Assembly (NCBI GenBank): GCA_003561535.1
Contig: PWWI01000268.1
Coordinates: forward strand, 1 to 37,311
Length of the DNA: 37,311 nucleotides
From: Nitriliruptoraceae bacterium
GTDB taxonomy: Bacteria > Actinomycetota > Nitriliruptoria > Nitriliruptorales > Nitriliruptoraceae
Direction of reading: 5' to 3'
Shown here: positions 2,094 to 9,505 of the stretch, one piece after another
Layout of the letters: every line of letters begins with the position of its first letter
How positions within the stretch are numbered: the stretch's first letter is position 1
Notes under the pieces: model-generated
The model's input: the letters and a program-made list of their open reading frames with translations, nothing else
What the model was told of the DNA's origin: nothing
Database searches by the model: none
Made by a program: the position numbers and the translations under genes

Positions 2094-4352
2094 TCACCGC
2101 TCGGCCACTGGGATGCCGGACATCACGTCCGCGATCGGCCGGATGCTGCCGAACCAGACCTGCTCGGCGGGACGCCGTGCGCCATCGGGATCGAGCAGCT
2201 CCCGGAAGCGCGACAGCGGGGTGAAGGTCACCTTGCCACCCACCAGGCCGCACATCGCGCTCTCCGGGTGCTCCTGCTCGAACTGGCCGAGCAGGTGATC
2301 CACGCACCGTACGGCCAGCCGGGTCGCCTGGGTCCGGTCGAAGGGACTGGGGTCACCACCCTGCTGGACGTGACCGAGGATCGACTGCCGGACGTCGAAC
2401 AGGCCCCCACCCTCCTTCTCGAACAACGCCCACAGGAACGGGGTGGTGTACACCGGATCGGCACCCTCACCGCGGATGATCACACCGAGACGCTGTCCCT
2501 GGCGGAAGCGGTCGTTGAGCGCCTCCACATCGTGCTTCAGCCGGTCGAGCGTGATGCCCTCCTCCGGGGTGTAGACGAACTCCGCCCCGGTGGCCAGCCC
2601 GCTCGAGAGCGCCAGGTAACCCGACCCCTTGCCCATCACCTCGACCACGAACACCCGGGTCGAGGCCACGGCCGACTGCTTGATCTTGTCCACGTCCTCG
2701 ACGATGGCGTTCAGTGCGGTGTCCGCCCCGATCGTCAGCCCGGTTCCCGGCACGTCGTTGGAGATCGTGACCGGCAGGCACACGATCGGGATGCCGAGGT
2801 CGGGGTGCTCGCCGCGGGCCTCGAGGAGGGTGTACGCCGCGTTGTAGCCGTCGAAGCTGCCGAACATCAGGATCCCGTCGAGCCCATGCTCGACGATCTG
2901 CGCGGCGATCGTCGGGAGGTCCTGCGAGGGCGGGGTGTAGCGCTTGGTGCCGAGCTCCGCACCGCCGTGGGAGGTCCAGCCGCTGACCGACATCCAGCCG
3001 AGCTCCTCCACGTGCCCATCGCGCAGCCCGGGGAGACCGCCGTGGATCCCGAGCACGGTGTGCCCGCGATCCATGATCGTGCGGACGGCGGCTCGGACCG
3101 CGGTGTTCATCCCGGGCGCGAGCCCACCACCGTGGACGATGGCGATCCGCTTGGCCGGCTGGTCGGCGTCGGCCTCCCGGGGCCTTGCCCGCACCAGGGT
3201 CCGCATCGTCTCGTAGGCCTCGACGAACCCCGAGCCGCGCAGCTCCATCGCCTCATCGAAACGCTTCTCCTGGAGCAGGCCCGCCACGGCCTGGGTCTTC
3301 TCCACCGCCTGCATCAACGGTGAGGTCACGATGCGGTTCTCGCGGATGCCGACGAGCTGGGCCTCCTCGGCCGCGTTGCCGGCAGCCAGCTCCTGGACGG
3401 CCCGGTACCCGCACCGGGTGCCGAGGTTGCGGTCGAAGGCGCTCGGCGAGCCACCCCGCTGCACGTGCCCGAGGATCGTGATGCGGGTGTCCTCGCCGAG
3501 GCCTTCGGCGAGGATGTCGCGAACCCGCTCCGAGGTGATGCTGACCCCGTAGCGGTCACGGGCCCCCTCGGCGACGATCACGATGTTCTGCCGACGCTTG
3601 ACCTTGCGGCCGTCCACGACGGTGCGCCGGAGCGCCTCCTCCCAGCTGGCCGTCTGGGGTGGCCGCTCGGGGATGAACACCCACTGGGCACCCGTGGCCA
3701 GCCCCGCCATCAGCGCGAGGTAGCCGCAGTTGCGCCCCATGACCTCGATCACGAAGGACCGTTGGTGGGACGAGGCGGTGGAGTGCAGCGCGTCGATCGC
3801 CTCGGTGATGCGGTGCAGCGCGGTGTCGGTCCCGACGGTCATGTCGGTGCCGAACATGTCGTTGTCGATCGACCCGACGATGCCGACCAGCTGCAGCTGC
3901 GGGTGCGCGTCCGCGAGCTCCTGCTCGAGCTCGCCGGCCTCGACCAGCTCCGCCAGCAGCTCCGGCCACTCGCTGGACAGCAGGTTGGCCCCGGTCAGCG
4001 ACCCATCGCCGCCGATCACCACCAGAGCGTCGATGTCCCGGGTCACCAGGTTCCGGGCAGCGGCGCGCCGTCCGTCCCGGGTCCGGAACTCCGGGCAGCG
4101 GGCGGTACCGATCGCGGTGCCTCCGCGGTGCAGGATGCCGCCCACGTGGTGGCTCTGGGCCTCCACGATGGCCTCGCCCCCCTCGACCATGCCCACGTAG
4201 CCCTCGTGGATCAGGTAGGGCTGGACCCCGACGTGCAACGCGGTCCGCACCACGGCGCGGACCGCAGCGTTCATGCCCGCGGCATCGCCTCCGCTGGTCA
4301 GCACCCCGAGACTGTGGGGGCGTCGGGCAGCGGACCTGCGGCTCTTGGTCAC
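2094..4352 (-). CDS. Tandem-fused 6-phosphofructokinase, eukaryote-type, ATP-dependent
   Basis: A 752-residue protein with two complete PFK domains in one chain, the layout of animal and fungal PFK-1; ordinary bacterial PfkA is about 320-340 residues. It phosphorylates fructose 6-phosphate to fructose 1,6-bisphosphate. GTG at 4352 is chosen because GGAGGA lies just upstream. The N-half (about 15-390) looks catalytic: GGDGS at 114-118 and GSIDND at 160-165, with Gly at both donor-deciding sites (ATP type) and the catalytic Asp163; MGRNCGY and GHVQRGGSPSAFDR follow. The C-half (about 400-752) has TISND at 529-533, so the catalytic Asp is Ser531, as in the regulatory half of eukaryotic PFK, plus DKIKQSA and a second GHVQQGG. 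Wording around GTDMTVGTDTALHRI and KRFDEAMELRG is strikingly close to animal PFK as I recall it. Methylglyoxal synthase lies 55 bases upstream on the same strand. Confidence 0.93.
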   Translation of the reverse strand: MTKSRRSAARRPHSLGVLTSGGDAAGMNAAVRAVVRTALHVGVQPYLIHEGYVGMVEGGEAIVEAQSHHVGGILHRGGTAIGTARCPEFRTRDGRRAAARNLVTRDIDALVVIGGDGSLTGANLLSSEWPELLAELVEAGELEQELADAHPQLQLVGIVGSIDNDMFGTDMTVGTDTALHRITEAIDALHSTASSHQRSFVIEVMGRNCGYLALMAGLATGAQWVFIPERPPQTASWEEALRRTVVDGRKVKRRQNIVIVAEGARDRYGVSITSERVRDILAEGLGEDTRITILGHVQRGGSPSAFDRNLGTRCGYRAVQELAAGNAAEEAQLVGIRENRIVTSPLMQAVEKTQAVAGLLQEKRFDEAMELRGSGFVEAYETMRTLVRARPREADADQPAKRIAIVHGGGLAPGMNTAVRAAVRTIMDRGHTVLGIHGGLPGLRDGHVEELGWMSVSGWTSHGGAELGTKRYTPPSQDLPTIAAQIVEHGLDGILMFGSFDGYNAAYTLLEARGEHPDLGIPIVCLPVTISNDVPGTGLTIGADTALNAIVEDVDKIKQSAVASTRVFVVEVMGKGSGYLALSSGLATGAEFVYTPEEGITLDRLKHDVEALNDRFRQGQRLGVIIRGEGADPVYTTPFLWALFEKEGGGLFDVRQSILGHVQQGGDPSPFDRTQATRLAVRCVDHLLGQFEQEHPESAMCGLVGGKVTFTPLSRFRELLDPDGARRPAEQVWFGSIRPIADVMSGIPVAER

Positions 4353-4407: not shown

Positions 4408-4863
4408 TCACCTCTGCGACAGCAGGCGCTCACGGTGGGCCGCGTGGTCCGGAACCTGCCGGACGTAGGCGGGGTCGGTCAACAGCGGGGAGGTCACCAG
4501 CAGGTCAGCGGTGGCCCGGTTGCTGGCGACGGGGACGTTCCACAGCGTCGCGACCCGCAGCAGGGCGCGGACGTCCGGCTCGTGGGGCTGGGCCGACAGG
4601 GGATCCCAGAGGAACACCAGCGCGTCCACGCTCCCCTCGGTGATCATGGCACCGAGCTGCATGTCGCCACCCAGCGGGCCGCTCTCCAGAGGCAGCACCT
4701 CGAGACCGAGTTCATCCGCGAGCAGCTGCCCGGTGGTGCCGGTGGCGACGAGACGGTGCCCGGCCAGGACCTCCCGGTTGTGGCGGACCCACGCGAGCAG
4801 GTCTGCCTTCTGGCCGTCGTGGGCCACCAGGGCGATCGTGCGCAGCGGCGGCTGCGGTGCCAT
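4408..4863 (-). CDS. mgsA: Methylglyoxal synthase
   Basis: A 151-residue cytosolic enzyme that turns dihydroxyacetone phosphate into methylglyoxal and phosphate, the entry to the methylglyoxal bypass of lower glycolysis. ATG at 4863 has GGGAGGGGAG just upstream. Key residues of the E. coli enzyme are all visible with the expected spacing: His15 and Asp16 in AHDGQKADLL, the phosphate-binding TGTTG at 41-45, catalytic Asp67 in SGPLGGDMQLG, Asp87 in FLWDPLS, and His94/Asp97 in PHEPDVRALL. Length is typical. It precedes the fused PFK gene by 55 bases and follows the metallopeptidase gene by 72, so co-transcription with PFK is likely; phosphate normally inhibits this enzyme, which fits a role in phosphate-limited or overflow glycolysis. 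Confidence 0.95.
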   Translation of the reverse strand: MAPQPPLRTIALVAHDGQKADLLAWVRHNREVLAGHRLVATGTTGQLLADELGLEVLPLESGPLGGDMQLGAMITEGSVDALVFLWDPLSAQPHEPDVRALLRVATLWNVPVASNRATADLLVTSPLLTDPAYVRQVPDHAAHRERLLSQR

Positions 4864-8353: not shown

Positions 8354-9505
8354 GTGAGGATCGGCATCCTGACCGGCGGCGGCGACGTCCCCGGGCTCAA
8401 CCCCTGCATCAAGGCCGTCGTCGACCGCGTCATCGATGACGGCCACAGCGTCATCGGCCTGCGACGCGGCTGGGCCGGACTGCTCGAGTACGACCTCGAC
8501 GACCCCGAAGGCTCGAACGAACGTCTGGTGATGCCGTTGAACCAGGAGGTCGTACGCAAGATCGATCGGACCGGCGGCACCTTCCTGCACACCTCCCGGA
8601 CCAACCCGCAGCGCGTGCGGGACAACGATGTGCCGGCCTTCCTGCGCGACCAGGCCCTCGGTGAGGGTCCCCACGACTTCACCGCCCACACCCTGCGGGT
8701 GCTCGACCACCTCGGCATCGATGCGATGATCCCGATCGGCGGAGACGACACGCTGTCCTATGCCCTGCGCTTGCACGAGGAGGGCTTCCCGGTCGTCGCC
8801 ATCCCGAAGACGATGGACAACGATGTCCACGGAACGGACTACTGCGTCGGGTTCTCGACCGCCGTGACCCGCTCGGTGGAGTTCATCCACCAGCTCCGGA
8901 CCTCGACCGGCTCCCATGAGCGCATCGCCGTCGTGGAACTGTTCGGGCGCTACTCCGGCGAGACCTCGCTGATCAGCGCCTACCTCGCCTCCGTGGACCG
9001 GGCCGTCATCTCCGAGGTCCCCTTCGACCCCGAGCGGCTGGCCGCGCTGCTGATGGAGGACAAGCGTCGCAGCCCCTCCAACTACGCGATGGTCACCATC
9101 TCGGAAGGCGCCACCTACACCGGCGGGGACATCCACCTCTCGGGCGAAGCGGACGCCTTTGGCCACCGCAAGCTCGGCGGGATCGGTCAGACCACCGGAG
9201 AGATGATCAAGCAGCTGACCGGTGAGGACATCATCGTCCAGCAGCTCGGCTACCTGATGCGGTCCGGGCGCCCGGACTCGCTGGATCTGATGGTGGCGAC
9301 CAACTTCGCCGTCATGGCTGCCGACCTGGCGGTGGATGGCGAGAAGGGCCGCATGGTGGCGCTGCGCAGCGGCACCTACACCAACGTTCCCATCACCGTG
9401 ACCGGCTCCGGCGCGCGGCGCGTCGACGTCGACGCACTCTACGACGTCAACGCCTACCGGCCCAAGGTCCGCCAGGTCGCCGGCAAACCGATGTTCCTGT
9501 ACTGA
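8354..9505 (+). CDS. 6-phosphofructokinase, predicted pyrophosphate-dependent
   Basis: A 383-residue single-domain enzyme that interconverts fructose 6-phosphate and fructose 1,6-bisphosphate. GTG at 8354 has GGAGGA eight bases upstream. GGD motif is GGDD at 129-132, so the residue equal to Gly104 of E. coli PfkA is Asp132, and the catalytic block is PKTMDND at 151-157, with Lys152 where ATP enzymes have Gly124. Asp plus Lys at these two sites is the established signature for pyrophosphate as phosphoryl donor, as in the Amycolatopsis-type PFK. Catalytic Asp155 and the substrate loop ELFGRYSGE follow. The reaction would be reversible and could serve gluconeogenesis too. It is about 4 kb from the ATP-type fused PFK. 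A TAGCGT -10-like box lies at 8316-8321; a hairpin at 9521-9560 probably ends the transcript. Confidence 0.93.

Follow-up and report, generated by a model that had tools for sequence, protein, structure and literature searches.

A tandem 6-phosphofructokinase in Nitriliruptoraceae suggests a bacterial origin for the fused PFK-1 of animals and fungi

Tandem phosphofructokinases (PFKs) are known from the opisthokont PFK-1 enzymes (human PFKM, PFKL and PFKP; yeast Pfk1 and Pfk2), and the pocket in the C-terminal half of human PFK-1 binds both fructose 1,6-bisphosphate and fructose 2,6-bisphosphate (PMC8802628; PMC12203962). A 2025 review of the superfamily describes the tandem fusion as a eukaryotic trait that created the regulation of these enzymes, and leaves Chloroflexota unmentioned (PMC12203962). 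A tandem PFK is already in print for that phylum, in a study of Chloroflexus aggregans that lists a 747-residue 6PF1K_euk protein and states that many Chloroflexota have one, although this is not general elsewhere in bacteria (PMC8004040). In the open literature that we searched, no phylogeny of bacterial tandem PFKs had been published. Here we describe a tandem PFK from a member of the Nitriliruptoraceae (Actinomycetota), encoded in a stretch of 37,311 nucleotides (contig PWWI01000268.1) that was analysed as a whole and is called the window below.

The enzyme is encoded by a single minus-strand open frame that runs from a GTG codon at 4352 to a stop codon at 2094-2096, with a GGAGG Shine-Dalgarno sequence just 5' of the start (Table 1). 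This corrects the strand in the sequence-only reading of the DNA with which our work began; a plus-strand gene at 2094-4352 was ruled out, as the reading there is broken by a stop codon and yields no relevant product. The protein scores 938.7 bits against TIGR02478 ("6PF1K_euk"; curated cut-off 708.4 bits) over profile positions 2-741 of 744, and Pfam PF00365 matches it in two stretches with 635 bits; when the whole genome was searched, one half scored 351 bits and the other 289. The resemblance to animal PFK, suggested in the sequence-only reading, is borne out by phmmer, which aligned residues 13-745 with mammalian PFK-M at an E-value of about 1e-209; the N-half shows 53% identity and the C-half about 39-41%. 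The window gene does encode a tandem PFK, with two PFK domains in one chain as first proposed. It does not fit the description of a single-domain PfkA subunit (about 320 residues), having 752 residues and two domains, nor that of a PPi-dependent PFK (Asp at 104, Lys at 124), since Gly117 occupies position 104; in the alignment Val159/Gly160 stand where the PKTMDND motif has Pro-Lys.

Table 1. Features of the tandem PFK gene and of neighbouring genes in the window
Feature	Position	Strand	Basis and remarks
Tandem ATP-dependent 6-phosphofructokinase gene (predicted)	2094..4352	-	752 aa from a GTG start, range with stop codon; TIGR02478, PF00365 x2
N-terminal half, predicted catalytic PFK domain	3183..4316	-	Residues 13-390; active-site positions complete
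GGDGS ATP/Mg motif	3999..4013	-	Residues 114-118; Asp116/Gly117 = E. coli Asp103/Gly104 (ATP type)
GSIDND catalytic motif	3858..3875	-	Residues 160-165; Asp163 corresponds to Asp127, the E. coli catalytic base
C-terminal half, probable regulatory domain	2115..3161	-	Residues 398-746; residue comparison, fold like human PFK-1 regulatory half
GSFDG where GGDGS is expected, degenerate ATP pocket	2847..2861	-	Residues 498-502; Asp103->Phe500, Gly104->Asp501
TISND where TIDND is expected	2754..2768	-	Residues 529-533; Ser531 at catalytic Asp position
mgsA, methylglyoxal synthase	4408..4863	-	TIGR00160 169.3 bits, cut-off 146.9; directly upstream of tandem PFK
Second PFK, single-domain, PPi-type residues (GGDDT, PKTMDND)	8354..9505	+	PF00365 228.9 bits

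The AlphaFold2 model, for which 48 sequences from the window and the loci were used, covered the full length with a mean pLDDT of 93 and a pTM of 0.93. It could be overlaid end to end on human PFKL (8w2g), with a TM score of 0.95 and 1.5 A over 743 columns at 46% identity, and the VIA-align Z for chains of human PFK-1 was about 49; the predicted fold of the C-half matches the regulatory half of human PFK-1. The architecture and modelled fold are thus those of opisthokont PFK-1, and the residues described below point to the same catalytic N-half and the same C-half, with a sugar effector site in place and the ATP pocket gone. Both enzymes also carry Gln for Arg252 in the C-half. By contrast, the window enzyme has neither the N-terminal glyoxalase-like domain of yeast PFK nor a C-terminal tail extension, and its C-half retains Lys575 and Asp533, at positions that are Gly and Asn in eukaryotes. 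The Chloroflexus aggregans protein, Cagg_2702, shares family, length and tandem architecture with it, and both genomes also have a shorter PFK; Cagg_2702 belongs to Chloroflexota rather than Actinomycetota and is known from annotation and transcript levels.

At 14 active-site positions of the E. coli enzyme the N-half reads GRDGGSDDRRERHR against GRDGGTDDRRERHR in E. coli, all 14 being functional, and 129 of 137 tandem N-halves are identical across this set. The GGDGS and GSIDND motifs lie in the N-half as originally reported, and an intact active site with Gly at position 104 argues for dependence on ATP; the N-half would phosphorylate fructose 6-phosphate. Single-domain PfkA (E. coli, Geobacillus) has the same catalytic residues and is the closest outgroup of the tandem clade, but has one domain and half the length, with no counterpart of the C-half.

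The C-half reads GRFDATSDRKERHQ at the same positions: the ATP motif is gone and the sugar-phosphate residues are present, with Arg471, Arg566, Met573, Glu629, Arg655 and His661 retained in the pocket. Asp103/Gly104 (E. coli numbering) are absent from all C-halves compared, namely 130 non-redundant bacterial sequences (110 from clade B, the window's clade, and 20 from clade A; see below) and 7 eukaryotic ones. The equivalents of Arg162, Glu222, Arg243 and His249 persist in nearly all of the bacterial C-halves and in 94-100% of those of clade B. The position of the catalytic Asp is more varied, with Asn in 75%, Asp in 19% and Ser in 5% of clade B, Asn in 45% and Asp in 40% of clade A, and Ser in all eukaryotes sampled. 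Ser531 is present in a TISND motif as the sequence-only reading had it, and is shared with a few close relatives of the window enzyme; it probably arose separately from the eukaryotic Ser. The division of labour of animal and fungal PFK-1 that had been read from this motif is supported for the window enzyme, but its Ser is not general among the bacterial tandem enzymes.

Because the ATP pocket has been lost and the sugar-phosphate pocket kept, the C-half is most likely regulatory. It would not bind ATP, and the old substrate pocket, with its sugar-phosphate residues, would serve as an effector site that sets activity. Two other roles have to be weighed against this one. A double-headed enzyme, catalytic in both halves, would account for the presence of most sugar-phosphate residues in the C-half and for the catalytic Asp that some bacterial members (19% of clade B, 40% of clade A) still have there. 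We rejected it as very improbable on the C-half residues, as GGDGS is destroyed in every C-half (Asp103 having become Trp, Phe, Leu or others), the window enzyme has Ser531 in place of the catalytic base, and no C-half looks catalytically competent by its residues; this agrees with the earlier suggestion that the C-half binds effectors rather than doing catalysis. It is also conceivable that the C-half is a mere structural scaffold whose sugar pocket is a relic with no ligand: the ligand is a prediction from residues, and the subunit interface could partly explain why the sugar site is conserved. However, the Arg162, Glu222, Arg243 and His249 equivalents are near-invariant across deeply diverged lineages while the adjacent ATP-pocket residues drift freely, and a scaffold seems to us improbable.

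For an effector site in the C-half, the identity of the ligand becomes the next point. PFK-2 (PF01591) was found in none of the 40 tandem-bearing genomes searched. The window's genome, in contrast to the situation of eukaryotic PFK-1, likewise yielded no PFK-2 to make fructose 2,6-bisphosphate; it is 81% complete, which bears on this absence. Fructose 2,6-bisphosphate is thus an unlikely effector here, although another enzyme in tandem-bearing genomes may make it, and the C-half more likely binds fructose 1,6-bisphosphate or fructose 6-phosphate. Absence in all 40 genomes also means that the sugar site of the C-half is probably older than fructose-2,6-bisphosphate signalling. Citrate control is possible, as Arg36, Lys558, Glu591 and Arg617 match the basic/acidic pattern of the citrate site in mammalian PFK-M; we put it no higher because the Arg617 position is variable in bacteria. 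The N2 AMP/ADP site gives little specific evidence, since most of its residues are positions conserved in PFKs generally.

The gene next to the tandem PFK, mgsA, has an open frame that extends to 4929, and the ATG at 4863, with a GGGAG site, is the preferred start. The two genes are probably co-transcribed. They are adjacent in 6 of 205 locus entries, three of these being the window's own, and a conserved mgsA-pfk operon as a functional unit was rejected because the pairing is confined to close relatives of the window. In one locus (L027) mgsA was not found and the neighbourhood was otherwise the same. The second PFK of the window scores 274 bits against TIGR02483, which is below the cut-off; it shares the PF00365 superfamily with the tandem enzyme but has Asp at 104 and Lys at 124, as in PPi-type or mixed PFKs, and is distant in the tree. 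A relative lies close to the tandem gene in 19 of the 205 entries, from distant lineages. The arrangement is seen in Nitriliruptoraceae at about 4 kb on the opposite strand, in Ilumatobacter, and in many Chloroflexota at 100-300 bp. Further bacterial genes nearby on the contig encode a zincin-like protease, an AAA ATPase and TauE/SafE. A minus-strand open frame at 1160-2062 begins like a lipoprotein, contains a repetitive acidic run, PEPEEPDPEEPEPPEPDPEEPDPEE, and has no Pfam or NCBIfam match.

A tandem PFK in a bacterium is no oddity. The enzyme is common in several bacterial groups: of 298 genomes of the Anaerolineae class 106 carry it, and of 27 Nitriliruptoria genomes 12 do. A Chloroflexota sample had 27 of 251 genomes above the TIGR02478 cut-off, and Actinomycetota 15 of 296; these 15 are the window's own genome, a further 6 from the same family, 5 more from the same class and 3 from elsewhere in the phylum. 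Single members were found in Geodermatophilus and Pseudonocardia, and the occurrences in Myxococcota (1 of 193 genomes) and Fermentibacterota (1 of 3) look like sporadic acquisitions. The closest sequences, at 92-93% identity and with the same neighbours, come from uncultured Nitriliruptoraceae MAGs, whose sediment sets we take to be from soda lakes. Two isolated Actinomycetota genes outside Nitriliruptoria and Acidimicrobiia (L004 in G139, L006 in G028) group with sequences of the Chloroflexota sample, which looks like transfer between bacterial phyla. In one Acidimicrobiia MAG (MO_197.B6) two distinct genes for tandem PFKs lie on different contigs (L045 and L074).

To follow the history of the two halves, we placed both halves of the tandem PFKs from bacteria and eukaryotes in one tree together with single-domain PFKs. 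Bacterial and eukaryotic N-halves formed one clade (100/99) and their C-halves another (100/100), with all single-domain PFKs outside both, which places a single fusion before the bacterial and eukaryotic enzymes separated. A chloroflexotal sequence (L160) branched first in both halves, and a search for its relatives uncovered a deeper tandem clade, clade A, in 20 Anaerolineae-class genomes (L160, L191-L208 and L210), whose members are about 43-50% identical to the window PFK. Clade B contains the window enzyme with those of other Actinomycetota and of Chloroflexota, and the two clades occur together in four genomes (G839, G858, G789 and G842). With ten clade A members included in the half trees, clade B joined the eukaryotes to the exclusion of clade A (100/98 for N-halves, 100/99 for C-halves and 100/100 for the concatenation). 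The eukaryotic halves formed a clade of their own (100/98) with the window PFK outside it, in a clade B that is sister to the eukaryotes or nearly so.

Single-half AU tests were too weak alone (p = 0.042 for N, 0.225 for C), and the halves were therefore concatenated. Monophyly of all bacterial tandem enzymes was then rejected (p-AU 0.0019), as it was under an edge-unlinked partition model (p-AU 0.0005), a run without bootstrap values from which the likelihood comparison alone was used. As a model-free check we searched for columns diagnostic at group level at a 70% threshold: seven of seven unite clade B with eukaryotes, one being the Arg252->Gln change in the sugar pocket of the C-half, and none supports any other grouping. 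Since L191 is weakly placed within clade A, that group may instead be a grade; the position of the eukaryotes is the same either way. The C-half stems are long, and long-branch attraction may draw clade A towards the root. The eukaryotic sample comprised seven opisthokont proteins, three mammalian and four yeast, and a wider sample with tandem PFKs from Amoebozoa and elsewhere might shift the place where eukaryotes branch.

Because clade A diverged before eukaryotic PFK-1 and clade B parted, the "eukaryotic" duplication is probably bacterial, and the trees suggest that bacteria evolved the doubled enzyme at a time when animals and fungi did not yet have it. Of the two origins first proposed for the window gene, an ancient bacterial form or a transfer, the former is favoured. 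Fusion in eukaryotes followed by transfer to bacteria would suit the name of the family model, the strong resemblance and the 2025 review (PMC12203962). We consider it unlikely: eukaryotes are not basal, clade A comes first in both halves and the alternative is rejected by both concatenated tests; eukaryotic C-halves are the more derived, having lost the Arg171 equivalent and always having Asn at the Asp129 equivalent; bacterial tandems are deeply diverged in many lineages; and two separate transfers into Chloroflexota would be required. A further possibility is that a bacterial PFK of one domain was duplicated locally and recently, with the eukaryotic likeness due to convergence; this finds a parallel in the C-half Ser, which the window's family and eukaryotes apparently acquired independently. 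It was rejected, and we give it almost no credence, as the halves cluster by position across bacteria and eukaryotes and not by organism, and the enzyme matches human PFK-1 over its whole length (46% identity, TM score 0.95). The window's genome is a draft of 322 contigs, in which a eukaryotic contig might have been binned by mistake; this too was rejected and has next to no probability, since bacterial genes flank the tandem PFK on the same 37-kb contig, relatives at 92-93% identity have the same neighbours, and the same gene is present in two single-contig relatives (G226 and G051).

We consider it probable that the window enzyme is a tandem ATP-dependent orthologue of PFK-1 over its whole length, with a catalytic N-half and an effector C-half, that derives from one fusion, most probably a bacterial one. 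Duplication and fusion would have occurred once, most probably in Chloroflexota-like bacteria and before the eukaryotic enzyme split off, and the window's copy would descend from that line. With less assurance, we lean towards a PFK-1 that was fused in a bacterium, probably one of the Chloroflexota line, and reached a eukaryotic ancestor as a finished enzyme, its C-half site preceding eukaryotic control by fructose 2,6-bisphosphate and answering to another sugar phosphate, for example fructose 1,6-bisphosphate. The direction of transfer is read from the rooted topology and from the finding of clade A only in bacteria.

Textbooks and the recent review (PMC12203962) present the PFK-1 fusion as a eukaryotic step. 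A fused enzyme that is bacterial and older than the eukaryotic copy would mean that animals and fungi obtained the main control point of their glycolysis in largely finished form, and that the part-degenerate C-halves of bacteria, which have Asp, Asn or Ser at the former catalytic position and either Arg or Gln at that of Arg252, record intermediates on the way from an active site to an effector site.
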